Below, one piece after another: positions 25,694-62,043 of a stretch of DNA of 64,000 bases. The first letter of the stretch is position 1; the number at the start of each line of letters is the position of its first letter. Under the pieces are notes generated by a model. It was given only the letters and a program-made list of their open reading frames with translations, had not been told where the DNA came from and did no database searches. Origin of the DNA: Muribaculaceae bacterium Isolate-036 (Harlan) (lineage in GTDB: Bacteria > Bacteroidota > Bacteroidia > Bacteroidales > Muribaculaceae); the NCBI GenBank assembly GCA_003833075.1, contig RIAY01000001.1, positions 62,001 through 126,000 of the forward strand. The letters are read 5' to 3'. Both the position numbers and the translations under genes were made by a program.

Positions 25694-26572
25694 ATGGACA
25701 GATACCAGAAGACACTTGCTGAAAGCCAGGTCATCGAGAATGACGAGGTTGTAGCAGCTGAAGTAAAGAAGATAGTTGAAAATTCAGGGAAGTATGCCAC
25801 TCCGGAGGTATATCAGTTCCTTTTCAGTTCCATCGACCTGACAACGCTCAGCACGGAAGACAGCGTGAAGAGTGTGTCTGAATTCACACAGAGAGTCAAC
25901 GATTTCGATAATGATTATCCTCAGTTCAAGAATGTCGCCGCCATTTGTGTATACAGCAATTTCGCAGAGGTGGTAAAGGCTAATCTTGACGTAGAGGGTG
26001 TTGACATCGCTGTGGTTGCGGGCGGTTTCCCCTCAAGCCAGACATTCGATGCTGTCAAAGTGGCTGACGTGGCAATGGCTGTGGAAGGCGGTGCCAACGA
26101 GGTTGACATTGTGATGAATGTGGGACGTTTCCTTGATGAGAATTATGAGGATCTCTGCGACGAGATCATAGAGCTGAAGCATACCTGCCGCGATGCGAAA
26201 CTCAAGGTTATCCTTGAGACAGGCTGTCTGAAGACCGCCGCCAATATCAAGAAAGCGTCAATTCTTTCGATGTACAGCGGTGCGGATTTCATCAAGACAT
26301 CGACAGGAAAAATCTATACAGGGGCTTCGCTTGAAGCGGCATATGTGATGTGTCAGTGCATCAAGGAATATTATCAGAAGACCGGCAACAAGGTCGGTTT
26401 CAAGGCAGCAGGCGGGGTTCGCACTTCAGAAGAGGCACTTCATTATTATGCAATAGTGAAAGAGGTTCTCGGCGACGAATGGCTCAATCATGATCTCTTC
26501 CGTCTCGGCGCGAGCAGTCTTGCCAACAGCCTGCTTGCCACTATGACCGGGGAAGAGGTGAAATATTTCTAA
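25694..26572 (+). CDS. deoC: Deoxyribose-phosphate aldolase
   Basis: Splits 2-deoxyribose-5-phosphate to glyceraldehyde-3-phosphate and acetaldehyde, the last step of deoxynucleoside breakdown. A TIM barrel of 292 residues; the Schiff-base lysine is in ADFIKTSTGK (about residue 196), and the conserved VGFKAAGGVRTSEEAL (second catalytic Lys) follows near 233. The N-terminal 60 residues are longer than in E. coli but usual for Bacteroidetes. It has its own promoter box. It sits 18 bp upstream of a secreted nuclease gene and leads into the predicted nucleic-acid uptake genes, which fits a role in using sugar from scavenged DNA. Confidence 0.95.
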   Translation: MDRYQKTLAESQVIENDEVVAAEVKKIVENSGKYATPEVYQFLFSSIDLTTLSTEDSVKSVSEFTQRVNDFDNDYPQFKNVAAICVYSNFAEVVKANLDVEGVDIAVVAGGFPSSQTFDAVKVADVAMAVEGGANEVDIVMNVGRFLDENYEDLCDEIIELKHTCRDAKLKVILETGCLKTAANIKKASILSMYSGADFIKTSTGKIYTGASLEAAYVMCQCIKEYYQKTGNKVGFKAAGGVRTSEEALHYYAIVKEVLGDEWLNHDLFRLGASSLANSLLATMTGEEVKYF

Positions 26573-26590
26573 TCTCCATATCCACCTCAA

Positions 26591-27646
26591 ATGAAACTTA
26601 ACAGACTAACCGCATTGGCACTGACACTCCTGATCGGAGTGTCAGCGTGTCTGTGCGTTAACGCACAGACACGAAAGCAATACCGCACTTTCGGTGTAGC
26701 TTTCTATAACCTTGAGAACCTTTTCGACACTATAAACAACAATGGGAAATACGATAAAGAGTTTTCCCCTTCCGGCTCCAACAAATGGGATGGCAAGAAG
26801 TATTGGTCGAAGATAAAGAATCTCTCTTATGCCATATCGCAGATGACCACAAAGACTACTCCGATTGGTCCTGCGGTTATCGGCGTGAGCGAGATCGAGA
26901 ACATCACCGTGCTTCAGGATCTTGTAAAAGCCGATGCTATCAGAGAATGGAATCTCCAGATATGCCATCATGATTCTCCGGATGCGCGTGGCGTGGATGT
27001 GGGTCTTCTTTACAACCCAAAGCTTTTCCGCGTCATCAACGTGACAAACCACAGGCTCGTGGTGCCGGAACTTCCGAAGTTCAAGACCCGTGACCAGATG
27101 TGTGTGGTAGGTCTGATGGGTGGCCGCCGCATCGCCATCATCGTGAACCACTGGCCTTCGCGTCGCGGAGGCGAGAAGGAGAGCAGCTGGCTGCGTGAGG
27201 CAGCCGCGTCGCTGAGCCGCTCAATTGCCGATTCCCTCTACAAAATCGATCCGAAGATGGGTGTGGTGGTTATGGGCGACCTTAATGACGACCCTCACAA
27301 CAAGAGCGTTGCCGAGACACTGGGCGCGGTGAAGAAAATCGAGAACACGCCTGACGGCGGTTTCTTCAACCCCTTCTGGGAGAAACTTGACAAAGGCATA
27401 GGTTCCTATATCTATCGCGGCGGATGGGATCTCTTCGACCAGATTATCGTAAACAAGAATCTTGTTGACGGTGCATGCGGGTTGAAATATCGCAGCGCGG
27501 AGGTGCTCAACAAGCAGTTCCTGCTGCAGAGCGACGGTAAGTATCGCGGCTATCCTCACCGCACATTCTCCGGCGGGGCGTGGACCAACGGCTATTCAGA
27601 CCATCTGCCGACGGAGATTTTCCTTGTGCAGGAGGTTGTGAAATAA
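26591..27646 (+). CDS. Secreted endonuclease/exonuclease/phosphatase-family protein
   Basis: A 351-residue EEP-fold protein with a signal peptide ending near CVNAQ. The metal- and phosphate-binding motifs of the fold are present in order: AFYNLENLFD (about 38), GVSEIEN (about 98), the NHWPSRRGG histidine motif (about 182), GDLNDDP (about 229) and the closing YSDHLP near 340. Members hydrolyse phosphodiester bonds in nucleic acids or phospholipids; the neighbours (deoC upstream, TonB receptor and endonuclease I genes downstream) favour nucleic acid. The signal-peptide codons hold two abutting hairpins, including a 28-bp perfect palindrome. It lies 18 bp after deoC and 41 bp before the receptor gene, so it is probably co-transcribed with both. 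Confidence 0.88.
   Translation: MKLNRLTALALTLLIGVSACLCVNAQTRKQYRTFGVAFYNLENLFDTINNNGKYDKEFSPSGSNKWDGKKYWSKIKNLSYAISQMTTKTTPIGPAVIGVSEIENITVLQDLVKADAIREWNLQICHHDSPDARGVDVGLLYNPKLFRVINVTNHRLVVPELPKFKTRDQMCVVGLMGGRRIAIIVNHWPSRRGGEKESSWLREAAASLSRSIADSLYKIDPKMGVVVMGDLNDDPHNKSVAETLGAVKKIENTPDGGFFNPFWEKLDKGIGSYIYRGGWDLFDQIIVNKNLVDGACGLKYRSAEVLNKQFLLQSDGKYRGYPHRTFSGGAWTNGYSDHLPTEIFLVQEVVK
26621..26673 (+). repeat. Two abutting hairpins inside the signal-peptide coding region
   Basis: Hairpin one: CTGACACTCC and GGAGTGTCAG (10-bp stem, loop TGATC) at 26621-26645. Hairpin two begins at the next base: a 28-bp perfect palindrome at 26646-26673, centred on GTTAAC with arms starting CGTGTCTGTGC. Both lie within codons 11-28 of the EEP-family gene, and the palindrome encodes the same peptide (CLCVNAQTR) on both strands. 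Confidence 0.9.
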
Positions 27647-27687
27647 CGAATAAAGACAACAATAATACTAAAACAGACTTTTTAATT

Positions 27688-30471
27688 ATGCGAATTAAAT
27701 TATCATTGCTGATGTTGCTGTGTATGGCACTTCCGTCGCTTGCCGCCACGGGCCTTACCGGCACTTTGGTCGATGCCCGCACAGGCAAGGCTGTCGCTGA
27801 CGCCAATATCCTTCTGCGCGACCAGGCAATCTTCGTGACGAGCGGAACGGACGGAACGTTCACCATATCCAACGCCGCTCCCGGCACCGATGTGCTGCAG
27901 ATCATAGCCTATGGCTATTCGGACGCCTATAAGGACGTGACCATAGTCAAAGATATCGTAAAGAATATCGGCGAGATCAGACTCGATCCCTCCGGTTTCG
28001 ACGGTTCGGCTCTCGACAGCGACAACTTCCTTTTCGACGAGGAGGAGATTCTCGATGAAGAGGGATCCGGTCAGAACGTAGGCACGATCCTTGGCGCCAC
28101 CGATGATATCTATTACCAGACATCGAACTATGACTTCTCCACTCTGCGTTTCCGCTGGCGCGGTTATGACTCGAACTGGAACACCGGATACATCAACGGT
28201 ATCAACTTCAACGACGCCATGCGCGGAAGGTTCAATTTCTCCGGTCTCGGCGGCATGACCTCAAGCGCATTCCGCAACCGCTCCACCGACATAGGTCTTG
28301 ACGCTGCTCCTTTCGGCTACGGCAATATCGGAGGCTCAAGCAACTTCACTACTTATGCTTCGGAATACGCGCCCGGATTCAAAGGAAGTCTGGCTTATAC
28401 CAACTCAAGCTATATGCTCAGAGCGATGTTCCAGTATTCCACAGGTCTCAACTCCAAGGGATGGGCGTTCTCTACCAGCATCATCGGCAGATATGCCCCG
28501 GAAGGCATAATCGAGGGTACGTTCTACAACTCACTCGGTCTGCAGTTCAGCCTCCAGAAGGTATTCAACGAGCATCATTCACTCAACCTCACCGCATGGG
28601 GTGCTCCCACACAGCGTGCGACCAACAGCGCCGCAACCCAGGAGGCTTACGACCTCGCTGGCACGAATCTTTATAACCCGGCGTGGGGTTATCTCGATGG
28701 CAAGAAGAAATCTTCAAGAATCGTGGAATCCGTTGATCCTTCCGTAATCTTCAACTGGGTGTGGAAACCCAAGATGGGCACTCAGCTCAATACCGGTATC
28801 GCATTCCGCAACAACAGATATTCAAGCTCTGCTCTGAACTGGTATCAGACTGCCGACCCGCGTCCAGACTATTACCGCTATCTCCCATCGTATTACACTC
28901 CCGACGCGGATCCCTTTACCGATCCCGAGCTTTATGCCGCGCAGAAAGAGGTTTATGACTTCGTTGCCGACTGGTGGGGAGGAGACAAGGCTCACCGTCA
29001 GATCGACTGGAACCGTCTCTATCAGACCAATCTTCTCAACCGTCAGCAGTTTGACCGCAATCCGGAACTCGTAGGTCAGTCAAGCTATATCCTCGAGAAC
29101 CGTCATTCGAATCTCACATCCTGGATGTTCAATTCATATCTCGACCACCGCATCAACGACAACATGACGCTTCAGGGTGGTCTCAGCGTGAACTACAGCG
29201 ACGGTCACTATTACAAGACAGTGCGTGATCTGCTCGGAGGTGAGTTCTGGCGTGACATCGACAACTTCTCGGAACGTGACTTCGCAGGAAATCCCAATAT
29301 CCTGCAGAATGACATGCGCAATCCCAACCGCAAGGTATATGAAGGCGATGTGTTCGGTTATGACTATAATATCCGCAGTATCAATGCCCGCGCATGGCTG
29401 CAGAACCAGATCACAACCGCCCACTGGAACGTGAACTATGGTCTTGAGGTCAGTTTCACTGACTTCGTGCGTCATGGCAACATGCAGAACGGCCGCGCAC
29501 CCGAGAACTCACTCGGCACCGGCAAGCACCACTCTTTCGACAATGCCGCCCTCAAGGCAGGCGCGACCTACAAACTCGACGGACGCAACTATTTCACAGC
29601 CCACGCATCATACGGCACACGCGCCCCGATGCCTGACTACAGCTATGTCTCTCCCCGCACAAAAGACACTTCTGTGCAGGGTCTCAAATCAGAGCGTTTC
29701 TTCACCGCCGACCTTTCTTACACCTGGAACTATGCGCGTTTCCGCGGTTCTGTGACCGGTTTCTACACACGCATGTGGAACGGCATCAAGCGTTCAGGTT
29801 TCTATGACTACCAGCTCAACACATTCATGAACTACTCGATGTCGGGTATGGAGACTGAATACAAGGGTATCGAGTTAGGTATGGAATACAAGATTCTAAG
29901 CAATCTCTCGGTATCAGCTGCCGGAACATTCTCTCGCTATACTTACGAGAACGACCCTCTTGGCGTGCGCAGTTACGAAAACGGTTCGCAGGAAGACGTG
30001 ACACGCCGCGTTTATCTTAAGAACTATCATATCGGAGGCACACCCCAGCAGGCTTATTCTATCGGCTTGAACTATAATATCAAACAATGGTTCTTTGAAG
30101 TGAATGGTCAGTGGTTCGGCGACAACTGGATCGACCTTTCACCAGCTCGCCATGAGGAGATGCCCGGACTCTGGAAATTCTGCACTTCCGAGGAGGAATA
30201 TATCCAGCGCCGCAACGAAATCACCCGTCAGGACAAACTCAACTCGGAATGGGTGATGAACCTCTCTATCGGCAAGGTGATCTACACCAAGTTCGGTTCT
30301 GTCAACTTCAATCTCAATGTCAACAACCTTCTCAACAACCGCAATATTCAGACAGGCGGCTATCAGGAGGGTAAGTTCGACTATACCGACTACAACGTGA
30401 ACAAATTCCCCAACAAGATCTATTATGCCCAGGGCATACGTGTCTTCTTCAATGTGGGAATCAGATTTTAA
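27688..30471 (+). CDS. TonB-dependent receptor with carboxypeptidase-like N-terminal domain
   Basis: A 927-residue outer-membrane receptor. The ATG at 27688 gives a proper signal peptide (MRIKLSLLMLLCMALPSLA); the frame is open further upstream, but that part overlaps the preceding gene. After the signal comes a carboxypeptidase regulatory-like domain (GLTGTLVDARTGKAVADANI), then an acidic linker (FLFDEEEILDEEG), a plug (FRWRGYDSNWNTGYINGINF) and a long beta-barrel with aromatic-rich strands, ending GIRVFFNVGIRF. The receptor would import a bound ligand with TonB energy. Lipoprotein genes with OB-fold domains follow directly, taking the place a SusD protein has in glycan loci. The ligand is inferred to be nucleic-acid fragments from the surrounding nucleases. 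Confidence 0.85.
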   Translation: MRIKLSLLMLLCMALPSLAATGLTGTLVDARTGKAVADANILLRDQAIFVTSGTDGTFTISNAAPGTDVLQIIAYGYSDAYKDVTIVKDIVKNIGEIRLDPSGFDGSALDSDNFLFDEEEILDEEGSGQNVGTILGATDDIYYQTSNYDFSTLRFRWRGYDSNWNTGYINGINFNDAMRGRFNFSGLGGMTSSAFRNRSTDIGLDAAPFGYGNIGGSSNFTTYASEYAPGFKGSLAYTNSSYMLRAMFQYSTGLNSKGWAFSTSIIGRYAPEGIIEGTFYNSLGLQFSLQKVFNEHHSLNLTAWGAPTQRATNSAATQEAYDLAGTNLYNPAWGYLDGKKKSSRIVESVDPSVIFNWVWKPKMGTQLNTGIAFRNNRYSSSALNWYQTADPRPDYYRYLPSYYTPDADPFTDPELYAAQKEVYDFVADWWGGDKAHRQIDWNRLYQTNLLNRQQFDRNPELVGQSSYILENRHSNLTSWMFNSYLDHRINDNMTLQGGLSVNYSDGHYYKTVRDLLGGEFWRDIDNFSERDFAGNPNILQNDMRNPNRKVYEGDVFGYDYNIRSINARAWLQNQITTAHWNVNYGLEVSFTDFVRHGNMQNGRAPENSLGTGKHHSFDNAALKAGATYKLDGRNYFTAHASYGTRAPMPDYSYVSPRTKDTSVQGLKSERFFTADLSYTWNYARFRGSVTGFYTRMWNGIKRSGFYDYQLNTFMNYSMSGMETEYKGIELGMEYKILSNLSVSAAGTFSRYTYENDPLGVRSYENGSQEDVTRRVYLKNYHIGGTPQQAYSIGLNYNIKQWFFEVNGQWFGDNWIDLSPARHEEMPGLWKFCTSEEEYIQRRNEITRQDKLNSEWVMNLSIGKVIYTKFGSVNFNLNVNNLLNNRNIQTGGYQEGKFDYTDYNVNKFPNKIYYAQGIRVFFNVGIRF

Positions 30472-30536
30472 TCAATGAGAGATGTGTAATTGTGAAAATG
30501 TGATTATACATTGATTCATAATAAGTATAAATAAAG

Positions 30537-31577
30537 ATGAAAAATATAAAGATCATACTTTCGATGCTTGTTCTGATGACCCTGGGTCTCGGAGCGTGCA
30601 ACGATGAACTGGCGCAGCCGCCCGTAATAATTCCTGAGGGGGGCATCGGAACCGGAGCATGGGATAATCCCATGACAGTTTATCAGGTAGGTCTCGGCAG
30701 TGTCAACAATGCTTTTGAGTCTTGCTGGGTTAAGGGATATATTGTCGGTTATGTGAATATAGATGTTGCGAATGTGCTTAAAGACGAGACTGCTGTGTTC
30801 ACGACTCCCGCAACAGTGAAGACCAATATCCTTCTTGCTGCCACAGCCGATGAGAAAGATTGGACAAAATGTATTCCGGTGCAGCTTCCGAGTGGTCCGG
30901 TTCGCAATGCTCTCAATGTTGCCGATCATGCCGATAATATGGGTAAAGAAGTATGCATACTTGGTTCAACCGGTTCTAAGTATTGCTCGGCATACGGACT
31001 CCGCAGCGCAAGTGCTTACAAATGGGGAGATAAAGGCGATGAAAGTATAGACAACAAGAAACCCGAAACACCAGTTGTTACCGGTCAGACAATATATTCT
31101 GCGCTTGACGCATCTGACTCATCTCTTGATCCGGAATGGACAATAGAGAATGTGTCTCTTGCGACCGGCTTAAATTATGTCTGGAGCTGGAAAGACTACA
31201 ACGGTCAGTATTATCTCAATGCCAGCGCGTATGCTCATAACAAGGCTAATGCCGCCCTGGCTTATTGCTATTCTCCGGTGATATCGCTTGATGGCTTTGC
31301 TACGGCAGCTTTCAGTTTCGAACATGCCGCAAAATTTCAGACCACTATCAAGGAACTTTGCAAGGCTGTGGTTCGTGCCGAGGGCGCGACCGAATGGACC
31401 GATCTTGAAATTCCTACATGGCCTGGAACCACAAGCTGGGCATTTGTCAACAGTGGAGAGATTGATCTCTCGGCTTATGTTGGCAAGAAAGTGCAGATCG
31501 GTTTCAAATATGAGTCTTCAGACGCTGGAGCCGACACATGGGAAATTAAGAACGTGAAAGTGACAGGCACAAAATAA
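30537..31577 (+). CDS. Surface lipoprotein, DUF6359-like OB-fold plus choice-of-anchor J domain
   Basis: A 346-residue lipoprotein (lipobox LGLGAC). Residues of about 35-160 form an OB-fold-like domain (NPMTVYQVGLG, SCWVKGYIVGYVN, WTKCIPVQLPSG), of the type seen in DUF6359 and YhcR nuclease OB domains. Residues of about 185-346 form a jelly-roll choice-of-anchor J domain (WSWKDYNGQYYLNASAY, EHAAKFQTTIKELC). It contains no catalytic motif that I can see. It lies 65 bp after the receptor and 21 bp before the next lipoprotein, whose last two domain types match it closely. A substrate-capturing role is an inference. Confidence 0.78.
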   Translation: MKNIKIILSMLVLMTLGLGACNDELAQPPVIIPEGGIGTGAWDNPMTVYQVGLGSVNNAFESCWVKGYIVGYVNIDVANVLKDETAVFTTPATVKTNILLAATADEKDWTKCIPVQLPSGPVRNALNVADHADNMGKEVCILGSTGSKYCSAYGLRSASAYKWGDKGDESIDNKKPETPVVTGQTIYSALDASDSSLDPEWTIENVSLATGLNYVWSWKDYNGQYYLNASAYAHNKANAALAYCYSPVISLDGFATAAFSFEHAAKFQTTIKELCKAVVRAEGATEWTDLEIPTWPGTTSWAFVNSGEIDLSAYVGKKVQIGFKYESSDAGADTWEIKNVKVTGTK

Positions 31578-31598
31578 TCGCCAAAAACAATCATAAAA

Positions 31599-33815
31599 AT
31601 GAAAAATATTAAAGCATTATACCTTGGAATGGCGATGGCGGCAGCCGCCGCTACCCTGACTTCCTGCCAGGCAGACATGGACGCTCCCGCGCTCGTGGAG
31701 CCGAAGGCAACAATGGAAGCCAACACCACCATATCGGAGTTCAAGACCGCTTTTGCTGATCAGACGGTGAAGTGCCCGATGAAGGACGAGGCTACACAGA
31801 CTCCTTATATAATCCATGGCCGTGTGGTTTCGAGTGATGCCACCGGAAATATCTACAAGTCTATCGTGATTCAGGACGAGACGGCGGCTATTGCCTTGTC
31901 CGTGAATCAGGGCTCGACTTATACGGACTACCGTATCGGTCAGGATGTGGTGCTGAACGCCACCGGACTCTATATCGGTTATTACAACGGTCTGCAGCAG
32001 ATAGGCTGGCTTGACGAGTATAACGGCGCTCCTTCGCTTACTTTCATGGCGTGGGATTTCTTCCTCGCTCACTCCGAGCTGAACGGTTTCCCGAATCCTG
32101 ACGTGAAGTATGTGGCGCAGGACGCGCAGTGGCCTGCCGACGCTCCCTACTGCATCGTGACAACATTTTCGCAGCTTCCCTCTACCGGCGAGGCGTTCCG
32201 CAACATGCAGAGCCAGCTTGTGGAATTCCGCAACGTGCATTTCGAGGAAGGTGGCAAGGAAACATACGCTCCTTATCAGGAGAGTGTGAACCGCACTCTT
32301 GTCGATGCCAACGGCGGAACGCTCACCGTGCGTACTTCAGGATATTCGAATTTCTACAACGAGCTGATTCCCGAAGGTTCGGGCAATGTGCGCGGCATCC
32401 TCTCTTATTACGGCGACGGATGGCAGCTTCTTCTCCGGGGTCTCGGCGATGTGATGATCACCGAGAAAGGTCAGAAGAACGACCCCTATACGGTTGAAGA
32501 GGCTATGGGTGTCATGGATCAGGGCGCTTCCGGCTGGGTGAAAGGTTTCATCGTAGGCTCTGTAAAGGGTGGAGTGAATGACGTGACATCCAACAATGAT
32601 GTTATTTTCGGTACTGACGCGGAGATGGACAACAACATCCTTATCGCCGCTTCCGCCGACGAGACGGACTGGACCAAGTGTATCGCGGTAGAGCTTCCAC
32701 AGGGTTCCGCATTCCGTGCGGCGGTAAATCTTGTCGACAATCCCGGTGTGCTCGGCAAATCGATTCTCGTAAGAGGTGATCTCGCCAAGTTCCTCGGCAT
32801 GCCCGGTATCACCGGCAACGGCGGCACCGCAGCCGACGTGGAGGTTGAAGGCGTGACAATCGGCGGCGGAACTCCGGCTCCGGGACCCGGCGAGGGTATC
32901 CCGGCAGGTGACGGTACAAAAGAAAGACCGTATAATACCGACCAGATCAAGGCTGTAACTGCAGACGCGACAGGTGTATGGGTCGAAGGTTATGTAGCAG
33001 GTTATGTAGCAGATAAAACATGGGATTCTGCAGTGTTCGGGGCAACTCCCTCAGATGGAGATAATTATAAGAACGCAACAAACGTGATCTTCTCGATGGT
33101 GGCGCCTCCTGAGGCTAATGCTTCCAACTCTGCACCAATAGGTCTTAAGAATGTAGGGGAGGTGAGAACCACACTTGGTATTTCCAAGAATCCTTCAATC
33201 TATGGTGCCCGTGTGAAAGTGAAAGGTGACTTGAAAAAATATTTCGGCATGATGAGTGTCAGGGACGTTACAGAATATGAGATTGTTTCAGGTGACACCC
33301 CGACTCCTCCGGAGCCATCGGGAGAGGACGTGGTTTATAAATCGCTTGAAGCAAGCTTGACATCCCTTCCGTCTGACTGGACTATCGATAATGTCACTCT
33401 TCCGGCTGGAAAGTCAGAATTGTGGTCTTGGAAAGAGTATAACGGCAAAGGCTATCTCAATGCCACCGGTTTTGGGGCAACGAGCGAAGGTCTTTCATAC
33501 GCCATTACTCCGGTAATAGACCTTTCCGGATATAAATCGGCAAAAGCTTCTTTCCGTCATGCTGCAAAATTCCAGACCACTATCAAGCAGCTCTGTGGGT
33601 TTGTTGTGCGTGATGCGGGTTCTTCCGCATGGACAGAGCTGACAATACAGGAATGGCCTCCGCTGGACAACAAATGGACATTTGTCAGCTCCGGTGAAAT
33701 GGATCTTTCCGCTTTCGCAGGCAAGAAGATTCAGGTTGCGTTCAAATACGGCTGCTCTGCTGCCGGCGCCGACCAATGGGAGATCAATGATCTTGAAGTG
33801 AAGGCGTCCAGATAA
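31599..33815 (+). CDS. Surface lipoprotein, DUF5689 plus two OB-fold domains plus choice-of-anchor J domain
   Basis: A 738-residue lipoprotein (lipobox TLTSC). Domains: DUF5689 (about 40-270: TPYIIHGRVVSSDATGNIYK, VIQDETAAIALSV), a first OB-like DUF6359 domain (about 285-420: NDPYTVEEAM, SGWVKGFIVGSVKGG), a proline/glycine linker, a second OB-like domain (about 440-575: KERPYNTDQIKAV, GVWVEGYVAGYVADKTWD), and a C-terminal choice-of-anchor J domain (about 590-738: RHAAKFQTTIKQLCGFVVRD). The anchor-J module is closely similar to that of the preceding protein, so one probably arose from the other by duplication. DUF5689 is also OB-fold-like. Nucleic-acid binding at the surface is inferred. A strong terminator follows. 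Confidence 0.8.
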   Translation: MKNIKALYLGMAMAAAAATLTSCQADMDAPALVEPKATMEANTTISEFKTAFADQTVKCPMKDEATQTPYIIHGRVVSSDATGNIYKSIVIQDETAAIALSVNQGSTYTDYRIGQDVVLNATGLYIGYYNGLQQIGWLDEYNGAPSLTFMAWDFFLAHSELNGFPNPDVKYVAQDAQWPADAPYCIVTTFSQLPSTGEAFRNMQSQLVEFRNVHFEEGGKETYAPYQESVNRTLVDANGGTLTVRTSGYSNFYNELIPEGSGNVRGILSYYGDGWQLLLRGLGDVMITEKGQKNDPYTVEEAMGVMDQGASGWVKGFIVGSVKGGVNDVTSNNDVIFGTDAEMDNNILIAASADETDWTKCIAVELPQGSAFRAAVNLVDNPGVLGKSILVRGDLAKFLGMPGITGNGGTAADVEVEGVTIGGGTPAPGPGEGIPAGDGTKERPYNTDQIKAVTADATGVWVEGYVAGYVADKTWDSAVFGATPSDGDNYKNATNVIFSMVAPPEANASNSAPIGLKNVGEVRTTLGISKNPSIYGARVKVKGDLKKYFGMMSVRDVTEYEIVSGDTPTPPEPSGEDVVYKSLEASLTSLPSDWTIDNVTLPAGKSELWSWKEYNGKGYLNATGFGATSEGLSYAITPVIDLSGYKSAKASFRHAAKFQTTIKQLCGFVVRDAGSSAWTELTIQEWPPLDNKWTFVSSGEMDLSAFAGKKIQVAFKYGCSAAGADQWEINDLEVKASR

Positions 33816-33842
33816 TCTGACAAAAACAATTAGCGATAACTG

Positions 33843-33877
33843 AAATCCCCCGGTGTGACTGTCGCACCGGGGGATTT
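33843..33877 (+). terminator. Terminator after the lipoprotein pair
   Basis: AAATCCCCCGGTG pairs perfectly with CACCGGGGGATTT (13-bp stem, 9-base loop), followed by TGT and an A/T-rich stretch. It closes the deoC-to-lipoprotein transcription unit. Confidence 0.8.
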
Positions 33878-34004
33878 TGTATGGAATTTATGCGGGAATG
33901 TTAAAAAACATTCTGAATGTGAAAGAATAAATATGTGTTTCAACGTTTATTATCTTGAATGAATCGTATTCCCGCGAGGGGAATGATAAAACTCCATATT
34001 GCGA

Positions 34005-35717
34005 ATGAAGAGATTTTACATGACACTGATGCTGGTGCTGTTTGTGTGTGCCGGCGCGTCTGCCGAATTTAAAAACGGCTATTATGATAAAATGAACGGT
34101 AAAAGCGGCGCCGCTCTCAAGGCGGCTGCCAAGGAGTGTGTGCGCACACATCAGACTCTTGTATATTCCGATCTGCCGACATATTGGCAGTATTCGGATG
34201 TCTATCCAGAACTTGTTGACGGTTGCAAACGCTGGTGGGATATGTATTCGGATGCGGTGTATCTCATAAAAAGAGGGCAGACCGGCAAGAGCAGTTTCTC
34301 GGCAAATAAGATGCAACGGGAACACAGCGTGCCTAAATCCTGGTGGAAGCAGAGCGGCTCGGTGGAATATACGCCGGCTTATTCCGATATGTGGAATCTC
34401 TTTCCCTCCGATGGCGCAGCAAATCAAGCTAAGCTGAATTATCCGCTTGGTCTGACAGCCTCTGCAAATTTCAATAACGGAGTGACGAAAGTGGGCGGTG
34501 CGCAGACCGGTTACGGCGGCGGAAGCCGTTACGTGTTTGAACCCGATGATGAATACAAGGGAGACTTTGCAAGGGCTTATATGTATGTGGCAACGGTATA
34601 TGACGACATAAACTGGGTGATCAATTACATGTATAAGAAAGAGGCTTACCCCACATTGGTGCCCTGGGCGAGGGAGATGCTGCTGCAGTGGTGCCGTCAG
34701 GATCCGGTGAGCCAGAAGGAGATCGACCGCAATAATGTGGTGGAGCAGTATCAGGGTAACCGTAATCCTTTTGTGGATTTTCCCGAACTGGCGGAATATG
34801 TATGGGGCACGCGCACCACTGAGGTATTCTATGTGGACCAGCAGGAGGGTAGTGATCCCACACCTCCGATAACCGGAGATCCTGAAATCACGTCGCCGGT
34901 CAATGGAGAGGCTCTCGATTTCGGGCAGGTGGCTGTGGGTCGTTCCGAGACCCGCGTGCTTCAGATTGTAGGAAAAAATCTTACGTCAGCTCTTTCGGTA
35001 AGGGTGAGTGGTGCGGACAAGAATATGTTTGTTCCCGAAATTACCAAAGAGATTCCGGCGGCTACGATAAACCAGAACCAGGGTTATCTGCTGAACATCA
35101 CCTACACTCCGACGGCTGTCGGACGGCATGAGGCGAAAATAATGCTTTATGACGGAGGACTGACCGGTTCTATCGCCGTAACGCTCAAAGGTGAGGCTCT
35201 TCCGATGCCGACGTTCACTACGCTTACAGCCTTGCAGCCTACGGATGTGACAGCCAATTCATATACAGCCCACTGGAATTCGGTTCCTGAGGGTGAGATA
35301 GCTGATTATTATGTTCTGACGCGCACGCGTCTTGTAGACGGCAATCAGGAGACGGAAACATATGAAACTGGGGAGACAAGCTATGTGATCAGCGACCGAG
35401 ATCCATCTGTTGCCGAGACTTATTATGTGCAATACTCGCGTCTCGGGATGCTTTCGGAGCCTTCCAACGAGATTTATGTTGCTGCGGGAAGTTCGGTGGA
35501 GGAGTTGTATGTGTCCGCGCCGATGCAGATTTATACGGTAAACGGCGGATTCATGATCAAGCTTAATGGCGAGAGCAAACCTATGCATGTCTATGATGTC
35601 AACGGCACGGAAGTGATATATGTCGCGACTCCGGTCGATGGCGATATCTTCCTCCTTCCGCAGGGCGCATATATCGTCACTGCCGAGGGCATGCGCCCCG
35701 TCAAGATCATTATCTGA
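34005..35717 (+). CDS. Secreted endonuclease I family protein, copy A, with Ig-like domains and type IX-like tail
   Basis: A 570-residue exported nuclease. The frame is open from a TTG at 33999; the ATG at 34005 gives the signal peptide MKRFYMTLMLVLFVCAGASA. The endonuclease I domain (about 25-270) has the His-containing REHSVPKSWWKQ motif, then DMWNLFPSDGAANQAKLNYP, and VEQYQGNRNPFVDFPELAEY. Next are an immunoglobulin-like/HYDIN-type domain (ALDFGQVAVGRSETRVLQIV), a fibronectin-like domain, and a short C-terminal domain (MHVYDVNGTEVIYVA, GAYIVTAEGMRPVKI) resembling type IX secretion sorting domains. The enzyme would cut DNA or RNA outside the cell. Two paralogues follow downstream. Confidence 0.85.
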   Translation: MKRFYMTLMLVLFVCAGASAEFKNGYYDKMNGKSGAALKAAAKECVRTHQTLVYSDLPTYWQYSDVYPELVDGCKRWWDMYSDAVYLIKRGQTGKSSFSANKMQREHSVPKSWWKQSGSVEYTPAYSDMWNLFPSDGAANQAKLNYPLGLTASANFNNGVTKVGGAQTGYGGGSRYVFEPDDEYKGDFARAYMYVATVYDDINWVINYMYKKEAYPTLVPWAREMLLQWCRQDPVSQKEIDRNNVVEQYQGNRNPFVDFPELAEYVWGTRTTEVFYVDQQEGSDPTPPITGDPEITSPVNGEALDFGQVAVGRSETRVLQIVGKNLTSALSVRVSGADKNMFVPEITKEIPAATINQNQGYLLNITYTPTAVGRHEAKIMLYDGGLTGSIAVTLKGEALPMPTFTTLTALQPTDVTANSYTAHWNSVPEGEIADYYVLTRTRLVDGNQETETYETGETSYVISDRDPSVAETYYVQYSRLGMLSEPSNEIYVAAGSSVEELYVSAPMQIYTVNGGFMIKLNGESKPMHVYDVNGTEVIYVATPVDGDIFLLPQGAYIVTAEGMRPVKIII

Positions 35718-35722
35718 TTTTA

Positions 35723-35774
35723 TTCCGCTAACGCGTCATAACCCTTGATGCCGGGTGTAGACGCGTTAGCGGAA
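35723..35774 (+). terminator. Terminator hairpin after endonuclease I copy A
   Basis: TTCCGCTAACGCGTC pairs perfectly with GACGCGTTAGCGGAA (15 bp) around a 22-base loop. The flanks are TTTA on the left and AATAAAA on the right. Confidence 0.7.
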
Positions 35775-35820
35775 ATAAAATCTCCAGCTAAGATAAAATC
35801 TCCAGCTAAGATAAAATCTC
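35775..35820 (+). repeat. 18-bp tandem repeat, 2.5 units
   Basis: Two identical copies of ATAAAATCTCCAGCTAAG, then a third that stops after ATAAAATCTC. It lies between the hairpin after endonuclease copy A and the transposase-like gene. Confidence 0.9.
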
Positions 35821-35899
35821 AAGGCTTTAGATTCTTAATTCAGGCTTAAATAATTATTTAAACTGAGATTTGTAGTTTAATTCTGCTTTCAGTAAATGA

Positions 35900-35925
35900 G
35901 TTTTAATGGATTTGTCCATTAAAAC
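35900..35925. repeat. 11-bp inverted repeat upstream of the transposase-like gene
   Basis: GTTTTAATGGA and TCCATTAAAAC form a perfect 11-bp stem with loop TTTG. It lies 66 bp before the transposase-like start. It could be a terminator read from either side or part of the element's end. Confidence 0.55.
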
Positions 35926-35990
35926 CTCTCCTTGCTCTTCTTCCTTTCCAATCAATCATTTCAATCATTTAATTTCAATAATACCGATTT

Positions 35991-37469
35991 ATGAAAGATT
36001 CATCCGGCTGCATTTCCGCTGACCGCAATTACGGCAATCTGCCCCCGAATATTAATCCGGATATGGAAAATATTATATTTGTAAGTTATGATATGGTTCA
36101 GGATGCCCGCGAGCCTGATGGAGATTTCTGCAAGCCGGATGCCCGGATTTCTGATGGGAATTTCTGCATGCCGGATGGGGATTACTGCGAGCCGGATGCG
36201 CTGGAGGAGGGAGAAGATGGCGTGTGTCTCCGGGATGTTGCTGCAGAAGATGGCTGCCCATACTTATCCGGCAACCCAGGGAATGCAGGAAAGGGGAATG
36301 TAGGGAAGGAGAATGGCGTGAATTATCCTTTCGGGAAAGAGCTTAAAAGAAGAAATACACGTAGAGCAAAATTCAAGGATTATCGTTCTCCCGGGTTTTA
36401 TATGATTACTGTCAACGCCCAAAAGAAAACACCTCTGTTTTGCCGGATTTATGCTTCCGGTCATTCAGGAGCGGCTAATGAAAGAATAGATTCCATTGTA
36501 CCGAAGGGAGTGGCAAATGAAAGAATAGCCTCTTTTGTGCCGGCAGGAGGCGGTGCCGGGACGGGAGCTTTGCTGCCGGTTATCGAATATTCCGATCTCG
36601 GATGTATCATAAGAGATAAGATCGAGACAATGCCGGATTATACGCCGCAACTGGAGATTGTAAGGTATGTGGTGATGCCGGATCATTTGCATATCCTTGT
36701 CAGAATCAAATCTACCCTTGAGCGACATCTGGGACGTGTGGTCGGCGGTTTTATGGGCGGGTGTACGGCTATGGCGAGAAAGGCGGGGCTGATAGCCCGG
36801 GAGGATTCTCTCTTTACCGAGAAGTTTCATGACAGAATCGTATGCCGTGCAGGTCAGATCGCGCGTCTGGTAAATTATATCAATGATAATCCGAGGAGGC
36901 TGTTGATCAAAAGAATGCATCCGGAGCTGTTCAGGAGGTATCTGCATGTCAGAATCGGTGAAAGGGAGTATGCGGCTTATGGAAATATATTTCTGCTGAA
37001 GCATTTTGACCTGTTGCCGGTAAGAATACACAGAAGGTGGTCGCCGGGTGAGTTTGATGAATATGAAAGGGGATGCATGTCACAGATAGAAAATGGCGCT
37101 GTTCCGGTTTCTCCATTCATACACAGGCGCGAGAAGACTATACGTGACAAGACTGTCGATTGCGGTGGAAATCTCATAATAATCAGGGATATAGGCTTTG
37201 AAGAACGCTTCAAGCCCCAGGGACGGGAGTTTGAGATGTGTGCTTCGGGACGACTTCTTCTTTTGGCACCGTGGCCCGATAATACGGGAAGGAGGAGCAC
37301 TGCCGGCAGTCGCGAGTTTCATTCAATGAATGATATGGCTTTTGAAATCTCAAAGTTGCCTGCGGATATCCGGATGGCTATAGTTATGAGAGAAACAGAG
37401 ACGAATAGAGACGAACTGAGAAAAACTGAAAGAAACTTAGAAAAACTGAGAGGAACTGAGAGAAACTGA
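35991..37469 (+). CDS. REP-associated-type (Y1/HUH) transposase-like protein with repeat-rich N-terminus
   Basis: A 492-residue protein. Residues of about 125-310 match the Y1 transposase fold: FYMITVNAQKKTPLF, the HUH motif MPDHLHILV (His232, His234) and the likely catalytic Tyr296 in NYINDNPRR. All key residues are present. The N-terminal 110 residues hold Pro-Asp-Gly-Asp repeats (PDGDFCKPD, PDGDYCEPD). An insert near 160-190 carries two copies of an ANERI(D/A)S(I/F)VP unit. The C-terminal 190 residues (GRLLLLAPWPD) are an unassigned domain, ending in a TERNLEKLRGTERN repeat tail. It lacks clear insertion-sequence ends and interrupts a run of nuclease paralogues. Such single-copy enzymes in other bacteria move REP palindromes. 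Confidence 0.75.
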   Translation: MKDSSGCISADRNYGNLPPNINPDMENIIFVSYDMVQDAREPDGDFCKPDARISDGNFCMPDGDYCEPDALEEGEDGVCLRDVAAEDGCPYLSGNPGNAGKGNVGKENGVNYPFGKELKRRNTRRAKFKDYRSPGFYMITVNAQKKTPLFCRIYASGHSGAANERIDSIVPKGVANERIASFVPAGGGAGTGALLPVIEYSDLGCIIRDKIETMPDYTPQLEIVRYVVMPDHLHILVRIKSTLERHLGRVVGGFMGGCTAMARKAGLIAREDSLFTEKFHDRIVCRAGQIARLVNYINDNPRRLLIKRMHPELFRRYLHVRIGEREYAAYGNIFLLKHFDLLPVRIHRRWSPGEFDEYERGCMSQIENGAVPVSPFIHRREKTIRDKTVDCGGNLIIIRDIGFEERFKPQGREFEMCASGRLLLLAPWPDNTGRRSTAGSREFHSMNDMAFEISKLPADIRMAIVMRETETNRDELRKTERNLEKLRGTERN

Positions 37470-37511
37470 GAAAAACTTATAAGCAATTGATGTTTATTCA
37501 ACGGATTTGTT

Positions 37512-37520
37512 TATATTTGC
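37512..37520 (+). promoter_or_regulatory. -7 promoter element before endonuclease I copy B
   Basis: TATATTTGC fits the Bacteroidetes -7 consensus and lies 51 bp before the start codon. Confidence 0.65.
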
Positions 37521-37571
37521 AGTTCTGAACTAATTAACCTAATCAAATACTTATTTAGACCTGAATCGATC

Positions 37572-39185
37572 ATGAACGCACGATTAAGCAGTTTGGCGGG
37601 AGCGTCCTTATGCGCTTTGGCTCTCGCGACACCGGCAGTCGCTGACGCACCTGCCGGGTATTATGATTCTCTCGAAGGGAAAACCGGTGTGGCATTGAAG
37701 AAAGCCGTCAAGGCGATAGTGAGGAAACATACGGTGATTTCGTATGGCGACGCTACCTGGAACGCTTTCCGTAAGACGGATGTCAGGGTTGTCAACGGCA
37801 AGGAATGCTGGTGGGATATGTATAGCTCCAATAATGTAGCCGTTTCATCCGGACACCCGGGGATGAATATTGAGCATTCCGTGGCAAATTCCTGGTGGGG
37901 CGGAACAAAGAATGACGCATATAAGGATATTGTCCATCTGAATCCGTCTGATAAGGATGGCAACAGCCGTAAAAGCAATTATCCTCTTACGGAACTTTCC
38001 AAATGTTCCTGGACAAACGGAGTTGTCAATGTGGGTTCTCCGAAGTCCGGTCAGGGTGGAGGAAGCAGCAACGGTTTTGAGCCTCATGATGACTACAAGG
38101 GAGATTTCGCCAGAACATACATGTATATGTTTGTGGTGTATGATGACATAAACTGGGGACGTACAAGCGGGGGACATAACGTGGAGTGGATGTTCACGGC
38201 GAGTCCGTTTGAGCTTAAGCCGTGGGCTAAAGAGCTTCTTCTTCGCTGGTCGGCAAATGATGCGGTAAGCCAGAAGGAGCGTGACCGCAACGATGGTGTC
38301 TACAGTCAGCAGAAAAACAGGAATCCCTTTATTGACCTCCCTGATCTTGCCGATTATATATGGGGAAGCAAGGCAGGGGAGCCATACCATGTGGATGGTG
38401 CTCATGAGCCGGATCCCGGTCCTGTAGACCCGGACCCGATAGACCCGGATCCGGTTGATCCCGACCCTGTTGACCCTTCACCCGAAGATCCGGCTCTTGT
38501 GCCCGGAACTTATGTTCTGGTTGCTTCCCAGTCTGATATTCGTGCCGGAGAGAGTTATCTGATCTTAGGGTCAGACTCTCATGTTGCAATGACTCTTGAG
38601 CAGAATAAGGAAAAGACATATTTTGAGCCGACAGAGACAATCGTCATAAATGACGGAATGATTGAGAAGGCGCCTTCAGACGCCGCGCTGATTACGCTCG
38701 AAACCCTTGGCGACGGATATGCCCTCAAGGCATCCGATCTTGGCGGCAATGTCAAAGGTTATCTTTTCAGTTCGGCGAACAAGACAATAAACCTGACTGA
38801 TTATTCCACTACGAAGGGAGTGAAGGCAAAACTGACGTATTCCGCGCAGGGAGTGTCGGTGGTATACGGACCTACGGTCAGCAGCGGAGCGGGTGCTTTG
38901 TATTACAACAAGAGTGCGAGACGGTTCACGACTTACACCAGCAGCGGTCAGGAGCGACTTGATTTCTACCGCAAGGTGAAAGACGCGTCAGGGATTGAAG
39001 ACGTGACGGACGAAGACGACAGCGTCATGGTCGAGGTCTGGGGCAATAATATCCTTGTGCCCGACGGCGCGGAAATATATGATCTCAACGGGCGTCGACT
39101 CGCGAGCGGCGAAAATCTTGCAAGAGGGATATATATAGTGAGCTCGCCAGCGTTCAGCAAGTGTGTCAAGGTGATGATAAAATGA
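37572..39185 (+). CDS. Secreted endonuclease I family protein, copy B
   Basis: A 537-residue exported nuclease. The signal peptide (MNARLSSLAGASLCALALAT) is followed by the endonuclease I domain (about 28-280) with NIEHSVANSWWGG, DIVHLNPSDKDGNSRKSNYP and QKNRNPFIDLPDLADYIWG. A linker of Asp-Pro repeats (DPDPVDPDPVDP, about 285-305) leads to a beta-rich domain of about 170 residues (YVLVASQSDIRAGESYLILG) and a type IX-like C-terminal sorting segment (EIYDLNGRRLASGENLARGI). It is more similar to copy C than to copy A in the catalytic motif. It has its own promoter and is 45 bp upstream of copy C. Confidence 0.85.
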   Translation: MNARLSSLAGASLCALALATPAVADAPAGYYDSLEGKTGVALKKAVKAIVRKHTVISYGDATWNAFRKTDVRVVNGKECWWDMYSSNNVAVSSGHPGMNIEHSVANSWWGGTKNDAYKDIVHLNPSDKDGNSRKSNYPLTELSKCSWTNGVVNVGSPKSGQGGGSSNGFEPHDDYKGDFARTYMYMFVVYDDINWGRTSGGHNVEWMFTASPFELKPWAKELLLRWSANDAVSQKERDRNDGVYSQQKNRNPFIDLPDLADYIWGSKAGEPYHVDGAHEPDPGPVDPDPIDPDPVDPDPVDPSPEDPALVPGTYVLVASQSDIRAGESYLILGSDSHVAMTLEQNKEKTYFEPTETIVINDGMIEKAPSDAALITLETLGDGYALKASDLGGNVKGYLFSSANKTINLTDYSTTKGVKAKLTYSAQGVSVVYGPTVSSGAGALYYNKSARRFTTYTSSGQERLDFYRKVKDASGIEDVTDEDDSVMVEVWGNNILVPDGAEIYDLNGRRLASGENLARGIYIVSSPAFSKCVKVMIK

Positions 39186-39230
39186 AGGCAATGATGAATT
39201 GCCGGTTAATGTAAATTAAAACAACAGCTT

Positions 39231-41063
39231 ATGAGAAATCTGATATCAGGTATAATGGTGACTGCCGGAGCGCTGTCGCTGATGGGGGAGATTCCGGCGG
39301 GATATTACCGCGAACTGGAAGGAAAAAGCGGAGAGGAACTGAAGGCAGCAGTAAGGAAGGTGGCGATTCCGGAAGATTTCGTGTCGATCGCCTATGGCGA
39401 CGGCACCACATCTTTCAAGACATGGCAGGCATTTGAATTTACCGATATCAGGATGATACAGGGCAGAAAGGCATGGTGGGACATGTATTCAAACAAACTT
39501 GTATATGTGGAATCGGGTCACAACTCGCTTAACATAGAGCATTCCGTAGCCAACTCATGGTGGGGCGGGAAAGAGGGAAGCGAAGCCGCCTATCAGGATC
39601 TGTTTCATCTTAATCCCTCAAATTCAGATGCCAACAATGCCAAGTCGAACAACCCGATAGGGATCGTTGGAGGCAATCCGGCATTCGACAACGGACTGGT
39701 GCTTATCGGAGCGCCTGCCGCCGGATACGGAGGGGGTGCGTCCAAGGTGTTTGAACCTGCCGATGAATACAAGGGTGATTTCGCCCGCGCCTATCTCTAT
39801 ATCCTGACCGCCTATGATGCTATTCCGTGGAAAACGGACAAAGGTGGAGAGGCTCTTTATACGATAACCGACGGCACGATAGACCTTCAGCCCTGGGCTG
39901 CCTCCATGCTTCTGAAATGGGCGGCGGAAGACCCTGTCGATGACAAGGAGCTTAACCGCAACGAACAGATCTACGGCATCCAGAAAAACCGCAATCCGTT
40001 TATCGACTTTCCCTCACTCGCCGAGTATATATGGGGTGACCGCAAGGGTAGCGCATTCACGTTGGAGGGGAATGCCGCCGATGCCGTGAATCGTCCGGCG
40101 GATCCGGCAGTTCAGGATGCGCGACTCACGGATGTCAACACATATGCGGCGGATTACTGGGGTAGCCGCAATCTGGTGTTTGATATAGCAGAAGGTGATC
40201 TCTGGATAAGCCTTGACGGAGGTTCGTATCAGAGATATGGCGACAGAATCTCGATACCGGCGGGAACTGTCAACGGCGAGACTCACATCGTCAAGGCATA
40301 TGCCATGAAAGAGACCGGAGGTAAGAATCTGCGCAGTTCGGTTGTGACAGTGACCATGACTGCGAAAGATCCCTCCGTGACCGACTATTCCACTTCGGTA
40401 TGGACACCTGCGGCTACAGGCGATGCCATAGATCCGGAGAGTCTTTATGTAATAATCTCCGCCGACAACAGACATGTGATGGGATGCACTTTCCAGTCGA
40501 ACGGGTTCATGCCCGATTGTGGTAGTGCTGAATACCGGAATCAGGACATGGATTCGGAAATAACGGTAATTCCCAACGAATCAGCAGTTGTCAGATTCAG
40601 GACAGCCGGAGCTTCCGCATATACGATGCAGGTGCTTGATGTGCATGGCAATTCCAAGGGATACTGGACATCCACAGCGGCAAAAAAAATGAACCTTGAC
40701 CCGAATCAGGGAACATCCGCCGGTGTGAAGGTGCTTGGAGACGGAACGGTCGAGATCGATTTCGGCTCCACACCCGGAAAACTATGCTACAACAAAAGCC
40801 AGCCCCGTTTCCTGAATTATACGTCATCACAAGGGAAAGTGATGCTTTACCGCCTCAAAGGCTCCGATGACACCGGATCTGGAGTGGATGAGACAATCCG
40901 AGATGACGAACCGGTGGTTGTCGACGGGCGCGATATAATAGTTCCCGCCGGAGGAGTTGTCTACGACCTCAACGGACGCCGCGTCTCCGGCATCGGACTC
41001 CAGCCGGGAATATATGTCGCGGTAAAGGCGAACGGCGAGGCTGTCAAGGTCTATATCCGCTGA
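39231..41063 (+). CDS. Secreted endonuclease I family protein, copy C
   Basis: A 610-residue exported nuclease. A short signal-like N-terminus (MRNLISGIMVTAGALSLMG) precedes the GYYRELEGKSGEELK opening shared with the other two copies. The catalytic region has NIEHSVANSWWGG, DLFHLNPSNSDANNAKSNNP and QKNRNPFIDFPSLAEYIWG. A chitobiase-like beta domain follows (about 280-390), then a domain related to that of copy B (LYVIISADNRHVMG, LCYNKSQPRFLNYTSSQG), and a type IX-like tail (VVYDLNGRRVSGIGLQPGIY). Probably co-transcribed with copy B. Two hairpins follow the gene. Confidence 0.85.
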   Translation: MRNLISGIMVTAGALSLMGEIPAGYYRELEGKSGEELKAAVRKVAIPEDFVSIAYGDGTTSFKTWQAFEFTDIRMIQGRKAWWDMYSNKLVYVESGHNSLNIEHSVANSWWGGKEGSEAAYQDLFHLNPSNSDANNAKSNNPIGIVGGNPAFDNGLVLIGAPAAGYGGGASKVFEPADEYKGDFARAYLYILTAYDAIPWKTDKGGEALYTITDGTIDLQPWAASMLLKWAAEDPVDDKELNRNEQIYGIQKNRNPFIDFPSLAEYIWGDRKGSAFTLEGNAADAVNRPADPAVQDARLTDVNTYAADYWGSRNLVFDIAEGDLWISLDGGSYQRYGDRISIPAGTVNGETHIVKAYAMKETGGKNLRSSVVTVTMTAKDPSVTDYSTSVWTPAATGDAIDPESLYVIISADNRHVMGCTFQSNGFMPDCGSAEYRNQDMDSEITVIPNESAVVRFRTAGASAYTMQVLDVHGNSKGYWTSTAAKKMNLDPNQGTSAGVKVLGDGTVEIDFGSTPGKLCYNKSQPRFLNYTSSQGKVMLYRLKGSDDTGSGVDETIRDDEPVVVDGRDIIVPAGGVVYDLNGRRVSGIGLQPGIYVAVKANGEAVKVYIR

Positions 41064-61975: not shown

Positions 61976-62043
61976 GGTGTTATTGTTTTTTAATGGTGTT
62001 ATTGTTTTTTATATGTATGCGATTGATTCATCCATCAAATTTA
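61974..62043 (-). promoter_or_regulatory. Leader of the peptidase gene: duplicated 19-mer and -7 box
   Basis: The 19-mer ATGGTGTTATTGTTTTTTA occurs twice in tandem (61974-61992 and 61993-62011, plus-strand reading), the first copy overlapping the start codon. On the minus strand TAAATTTG at 62043-62036 fits the -7 consensus. Confidence 0.6.

Follow-up and report, generated by a model that had tools for sequence, protein, structure and literature searches.

A Muribaculaceae locus that may import DNA: counterparts of the Riemerella transformation pair among secreted nucleases

Introduction

The closest described relative of the locus treated here comes from Riemerella anatipestifer, a pathogen of ducks. 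Two adjacent genes of that bacterium, RA0C_RS04915 for an outer-membrane protein with a CarboxypepD_reg domain and RA0C_RS04920 for a protein with DUF5689, DUF5017 and choice-of-anchor J domains, are essential for natural transformation, and when either is removed by markerless deletion, the transformation frequency falls from 5.4e-5 to less than the detection limit, about 4e-10 (PMC8459023; this and the other papers below are cited from excerpts). Deletion of RS07335, of a YifB-type family, lowers transformation from 5.4e-5 to 4.2e-7, and the authors offer a self-described speculative model of how DNA passes the outer membrane in Bacteroidota (PMC8459023). The tonBA and tonBB mutants also transform less, with the tonBB effect ascribed by the authors to iron (PMC8383284). 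The locus that is compared with this system lies in a stretch of 64,000 nucleotides, here called the window, from the genome of Muribaculaceae bacterium Isolate-036 (Harlan), at positions 62,001 to 126,000 of contig RIAY01000001.1 in an assembly of 68 contigs and 3.48 Mb. From 25694 to 41063 of the window, the + strand carries deoC, an EEP nuclease gene, a receptor gene, the genes for a small and a large lipoprotein, and three Endonuclease I genes. With a probability of roughly 0.7, these genes make up a module for DNA uptake across the outer membrane, of the Riemerella transformation kind and enlarged in Muribaculaceae by nucleases and deoC.

The SusC-SusD polysaccharide utilisation loci likewise gather a TonB receptor, a surface lipoprotein and secreted depolymerases in one run, but nucleases replace the carbohydrate-active enzymes here. 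A scan of the nine genes from 25694 to 41063 finds none of the latter, and the SusC/RagA and SusD models match neither the receptor nor the lipoproteins at E 0.1. An earlier interpretation made from the letters alone (the sequence-only reading) had put the receptor-lipoprotein pair in the place of SusC and SusD, and these results, with the nucleases in the run, agree with it. The BtuB-BtuG complexes of Bacteroides, in which a cobalamin receptor is joined by a lipoprotein, presumably differ in both lipoprotein family and cargo. The extracellular nucleases ExeM and NucH combine OB-type domains with an EEP domain. They share with the present system partial NF033681 matches, found in a receptor-adjacent type IX secretion system (T9SS) protein and in the Riemerella-type EEP protein; the present loci, by contrast, mostly keep OB domains and nucleases in different proteins and have a receptor beside them.

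Counterparts in Riemerella

The comparison genome (G200) is of Riemerella type and consists of a single contig of 2,164,087 bp. Its gene order is recA, dinB, three genes (one of them sdhA), comEC, two genes, a divergent EEP gene, the receptor gene and the DUF5689 lipoprotein gene, which fits the published tags RS04870 (RecA), RS04895 (ComEC), RS04910, RS04915 and RS04920 counted in fives. The lipoprotein of this genome scores 599 bits (cut-off 475) against NF052645 (lipo_M949_1556), a family whose name derives from a gene of R. anatipestifer, and has a trace of DUF5017, as in the protein of PMC8459023. The genome is probably that of Riemerella.

Three of the 14 open reading frames of at least 90 residues in the G200 stretch that was read match the window, and they are the EEP protein, the receptor and the lipoprotein, with nothing else. 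The EEP protein (26591..27646) is 33% identical to the divergent EEP protein (E 1e-65), the receptor (27688..30471) is 28% identical to the counterpart of RA0C_RS04915 over its whole length (E 8e-95), and the large lipoprotein (31599..33815) is 31% identical to the counterpart of RA0C_RS04920 over 288 residues (E 4e-26). Judged by these alignments, the three are the counterparts of RA0C_RS04910, RA0C_RS04915 and RA0C_RS04920, and the large lipoprotein is a homologue that stands outside the NF052645 subfamily.

Both systems have a receptor in which CarboxypepD_reg alone is recognised, a DUF5689 lipoprotein that ends in choice-of-anchor J, and a PF19580 EEP neighbour. In the Muribaculaceae locus, by contrast, the EEP gene is co-directional, the lipoprotein carries DUF6359, the set is larger by a second lipoprotein, deoC and three Endonuclease I genes, and comEC lies on another contig of the genome. 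The distance between comEC and the pair is about 4.4 kb in G200 and 12 kb in a second genome (G149). Linkage to comEC was rejected as a general feature because the two are on separate contigs in the window's genome (C19 and C1) and in G020. In the family of G020 the receptor and ComEC are each found in 56 of 60 genomes, with both missing in two, the receptor alone in two and ComEC alone in two; some of these genomes are incomplete, and for that reason the pattern was dropped as evidence. A YifB-type AAA ATPase, of the RS07335 family, is encoded in the window at 55513-57063.

Receptor and lipoprotein across Bacteroidia

Co-occurrence in other genomes, whose absence the sequence-only reading had counted as a refutation, was checked in a sample of 149 genomes of the class Bacteroidia, with counts uncorrected for kinship, and the receptor and strong DUF5689 matches are found in the same 29 of them. 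The receptor profile scores at least 512 bits in these 29 (next score, 149 bits), and DUF5689 reaches at least 115 bits in them and no more than 65 bits in the remaining 120. The genes for receptor and lipoprotein are direct neighbours in 27 of the 29 genomes, including one (G096) whose receptor gene is broken across contigs, with the DUF5689 gene next to the end of it. The window's own genome has one small DUF6359 lipoprotein gene between them, and in G072 they are on different contigs. Across the class sample, the receptor and the DUF5689 lipoprotein are an obligate pair. The domain alone is not confined to the pair, since the genomes of Bacteroides ihuae and Bacillus subtilis, used as controls, also have DUF5689 matches. 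The B. subtilis match passes the cut-off and lies far from any TonB receptor.

In the predicted model of the large lipoprotein, DUF5689 and DUF6359 structurally match OB-fold domains, and the protein is predicted to be an OB-fold binding protein. The barrel in the predicted model of the receptor matches solved TonB-dependent transporters, which among the matches listed are mostly transporters of cobalamin, metals and siderophores. The receptor has no Pfam Plug match, and its structural alignments start at residue 124-142, where the predicted local distance difference test score (pLDDT) of the model is below 50. A sequence search of solved structures gave no informative relative for the receptor, the lipoproteins or the EEP protein; Endonuclease I (a), the first of the three, has weak matches to solved Endonuclease I chains (E 0.008-0.03).

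A distant relative of the receptor, with 23% identity and a Pfam Plug domain, is encoded elsewhere in the window's own genome (G000:C5:11758-16542; L085:5759-10543, - strand) and is followed by a 678-residue protein with a lipobox, judged by eye, and no Pfam match. Six other genomes (G045, G018, G007, G056, G022 and G064) have a distant receptor at most 3 kb from a frame of 575-819 residues with a weak DUF5689 match. The distant receptor and its neighbour, with lipobox or weak DUF5689 match, possibly form a second, related uptake pair.

Association with nucleases

Purpose-built hidden Markov models of nucleases were run on 28 orthologue loci from outside the window's genome and on 20 shifted regions of the same genomes. 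At least one nuclease is found in 21 of the 28 loci and in 2 of the 20 control regions (Fisher p 8e-6, a generous figure, given that the models were trained partly on the loci tested), and the control matches are weak, at 21-27 bits with none above 30. A PF19580 EEP gene is present in 20 of the 28 loci. The additional nuclease varies by lineage and may be an Endonuclease_NS protein, an EEP protein with a type IX tail, a PLD-like protein with type IX tails, or Endonuclease I. The runs of Aureibacter and Flammeovirga contain genes for the receptor, DUF5689, endonuclease and EEP, and Bacteroides finegoldii has the receptor, DUF5689 and EEP genes plus one for an Endonuclease_NS protein. Endonuclease I is fused to DUF5689 in Flammeovirga kamogawensis, and in G063 a PLD-like domain (PLDc_2) is fused to a partial DUF5689 match of 48 bits. 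Three lines connect the receptor-DUF5689 pair with nucleases: the order of the genes, the several families of nuclease beside the pair, and the fused domains.

The locus in Muribaculaceae

The gene set that the sequence-only reading had named for this region holds up at its coordinates, with all genes on the + strand. The run is tight, with gaps of 18, 41, 65 and 21 bases from deoC to the large lipoprotein gene and then 189 bases to Endonuclease I (a). At its head, deoC (25694..26572; deoxyribose-phosphate aldolase, TIGR00126, 150.8 bits, cut-off 117.3) is the sole deoC match in the genome. The secreted EEP-family nuclease/phosphatase scores 363 bits against PF19580 (cut-off 27), has a possible lipid anchor, judged by eye, and contains SEIEN, GDLNDD and SDHLP, which are taken to be its catalytic motifs. 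The receptor, of 927 residues, is a TonB-dependent-receptor-like outer-membrane barrel with an N-terminal CarboxypepD_reg domain; searches with it started one codon upstream, at 27685. The small lipoprotein (30537..31577) joins DUF6359 (PF19886, 105.5 bits) to choice-of-anchor J (NF038128, 48.7 bits) and has a lipobox, read by eye, of LGAC. The large lipoprotein has DUF5689 (PF18942, 183 bits), two DUF6359 stretches (PF19886, 162 bits) and, at its end, choice-of-anchor J (residues 588-734, 39.1 bits, cut-off 30), and its lipobox cysteine is unchanged across 21 aligned rows.

The secreted Endonuclease I proteins (a) (34005..35717; 153 bits, EHSVPKSW), (b) (37572..39185; 135 bits, EHSVANSW) and (c) (39231..41063; 119 bits, EHSVANSW) are the only PF04231 matches in the whole genome (cut-off 25). 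All three contain the EHS motif, which presumably has a role in Endonuclease I. The middle of (a) is weakly choice-of-anchor D-like and its tail is type IX-like. Against PF18962 and TIGR04183, the candidate type A tails of the window's Endonuclease I proteins give no profile match; in a tail comparison of 37 Endonuclease I proteins, among them the window's three, the window tails give E 0.19-2.3 and 10 of the 37 reach E <0.01, and the tail of no other gene does. SprA, of type IX secretion, is encoded in the window's genome.

The nearest named relatives of the source, by protein search of named genome contigs, are Muribaculaceae-type metagenome bins, and the search yielded 25 loci, two of them (L014 and L026) from one metagenome-assembled genome. 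The gene order is conserved in these relatives. In 23 of the 25, deoC and the EEP gene lie upstream of the receptor gene (the exceptions are L022 and L027), Endonuclease I (a) lies 3' of the lipoprotein genes in 22 of the 24 with a long enough stretch, and the outer flanks, ruvC and korA, are kept in fewer of the 25. Within the window's family, 87 of 118 genomes have the receptor, and these span 21 of 26 genera. In a tree of 50 receptors, with row labels assigned by us, that of the window falls among Muribaculaceae-type rows and that of L103 among rows of family f23, with several deep forks and the place of the distant paralogues unsettled. One f23 genome has two receptor copies, one of which (L105; G194:C16:136000-155900) groups with Bacteroides finegoldii with full support and has a Bacteroides-type gene set, and is either a between-family transfer or contamination. 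A 27-kb B. finegoldii record labelled as a plasmid (L099; NZ_OY725948.1) carries the receptor, DUF5689 and EEP genes near bglX and may be a chromosomal piece.

Proposed working and alternatives

The counterparts of the pair are required for transformation in Riemerella; therefore, the module most likely imports DNA. In short, the secreted Endonuclease I proteins would cut extracellular DNA, the surface OB-fold lipoproteins with DUF5689 and DUF6359 would keep it positioned above the receptor, which, driven by TonB, would pull DNA or fragments into the periplasm, and the EEP enzyme would trim what is imported. From there, single strands may travel through ComEC to DprA and RecA and be recombined, or breakdown in the periplasm may yield nucleosides and, via DeoC, a use for deoxyribose. 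In this scheme we infer that DNA is bound, which way it is transported, in what order it is cut and imported, where the EEP enzyme acts and that the DNA has two fates. Feeding and transformation are judged about equal, and compatible, fates of the imported DNA in Muribaculaceae, and, given deoC and the three DNases, we lean towards an import of fragments in which catabolism takes a larger share than it does in Riemerella.

Several points weigh against this account. The two AlphaFold models are middling (pLDDT 73.6 and 67.8), the identity between the window and Riemerella is low (28-33%), and with 151 bits the window lipoprotein falls short of the 475 that NF052645 requires. The enrichment figure is generous, as noted, and 7 of the 28 orthologue loci have no nuclease in the stretch read. 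The Riemerella-type stretch read has no Endonuclease I. The transformation genes that the excerpts of PMC8459023 list do not include RS04910, the EEP counterpart, and Flavobacterium johnsoniae, with all homologues present, was not transformable in the hands of the same authors. ComEC is present in 145 of the 149 genomes and HHH_3 in all 149, and the transformation genes tested do not track the module. Three secreted DNases would destroy transforming DNA, and in the literature searched no report of binding or uptake was met for a member of the Bacteroidales.

Scavenging pure and simple, in which fragments cut from extracellular DNA or RNA are taken in and broken down without a link to recombination in this lineage, is possible, with the odds against it. 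It is favoured by the three Endonuclease I genes, by the place of deoC at the head of the run and before the EEP gene in 23 of the 25 relatives, by the presence of deoC in 28 of 29 receptor-positive and 89 of 120 receptor-negative genomes (p 0.006, uncorrected for kinship), and by reports of Bacteroidota as degraders of DNA in sediments (PMC8289736, excerpts). Profile scans of the run reveal neither a nucleoside transporter nor a phosphorylase, however, and the stretches of the 28 class loci have no deoC, a link that was met solely in Muribaculaceae-type loci. The capture, cutting and import of nucleic acid proposed in the sequence-only reading gain from the pairing in 29 genomes and from the nuclease enrichment, whereas its further step, use as food, is a conjecture, against which stands that the pair has been proven to act in transformation in Riemerella. 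That requirement is the only genetics met on the pair in the literature searched, and the sequence-only reading did not take it into account (PMC8459023, excerpts).

Natural transformation proper, with long DNA imported for recombination and nucleases that merely shape or clear DNA, is unlikely to be the whole account. The essential counterparts in Riemerella argue for it, as do ComEC and DprA, both encoded in the window's genome, and the YifB-type ATPase in the window, given the effect of the RS07335 deletion (PMC8459023, excerpts). Against it stand the three DNases beside the receptor and a literature search that turned up no report of transformation for Bacteroidales. ComEC is near universal; therefore, its presence decides nothing. 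As markers to separate transformation from feeding, ComEC (145/149), HHH_3 (149/149) and deoC (117/149) were set aside as too common.

It is improbable that the nucleases serve to degrade biofilm or host DNA, like the BT3563 DNase of B. thetaiotaomicron, with the receptor importing the products incidentally. In favour, the DNA in the matrix of bile-dependent biofilms is degraded by BT3563 (PMC11078008, excerpts). The gene neighbours of BT3563 may resemble this locus; passages of PMC8470499, PMC10994844 and PMC12502800 are silent on what those neighbours are. The one-to-one occurrence of receptor and DUF5689 is left unexplained. Import of another cargo (a glycan, cofactor or peptide) beside incidental nuclease neighbours would suit a receptor without a solved relative by sequence and with mostly cobalamin, metal and siderophore transporters among its listed fold matches, but is very improbable in view of the nuclease enrichment over controls, the two kinds of DUF5689-nuclease fusion and the Riemerella genetics.

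Significance

The transformation pair of Riemerella is already known; what is new is the obligate pairing, the nuclease cassette with its fusions, the Muribaculaceae locus and the place of the pair in gut Bacteroidales, with the pair traced into these and into Cytophagales. Beyond PMC8459023, no mention of DUF5689, DUF6359, PF18942, PF19886 or PF19580 was found in a literature search that left preprints and most subscription papers outside, and an earlier description elsewhere is possible. The excerpts of PMC8459023 are inconsistent in that they describe all four new proteins as having homologues widely across Bacteroidetes, yet place those of RS04915 in Flavobacteriaceae alone; its authors may have known in part of a presence outside that family.

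It is about an even bet that many Bacteroidota share a DNA importer made of a TonB-driven receptor and an OB-fold lipoprotein, with lineage-specific secreted nucleases, that feeds recombination or catabolism, and that gut commensals (Muribaculaceae, some Bacteroides, Prevotella) which carry it are cryptically competent or feed on DNA. For gut bacteria, two claims are made, that DNA uptake would be receptor-dependent and that the DNA would be used for gene exchange or as food, and both bear on gene flow in the gut.

Other features of the window

Directly 3' of Endonuclease I (a), on the + strand, an inverted repeat (35718..35779) with 27-nt arms that are 81% complementary possibly marks a transcript end; it is absent from the predicted terminators of the terminator scan. 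The sigma-70 and terminator scans of the window gave counts near those of shuffled sequence. The Bacteroides-type promoter is a -33/-7 pattern. It has two matches in the window, both outside the locus, and as many were obtained in 19 of 100 shuffled sequences. Between Endonuclease I (a) and (b) lies an open reading frame like that of a REP-associated tyrosine transposase (35991-37469, + strand; NF047646, 44 bits, below the cut-off of 80), which has no match in the loci of the 25 relatives at E 1e-8. Direct repeats of 18 bp stand before it (35768-35823), and 10-bp repeats stand at its end (37389-37487). At 12723-15233, the window encodes a fimbrial tip adhesin of the FimD family (439 bits, cut-off 170).

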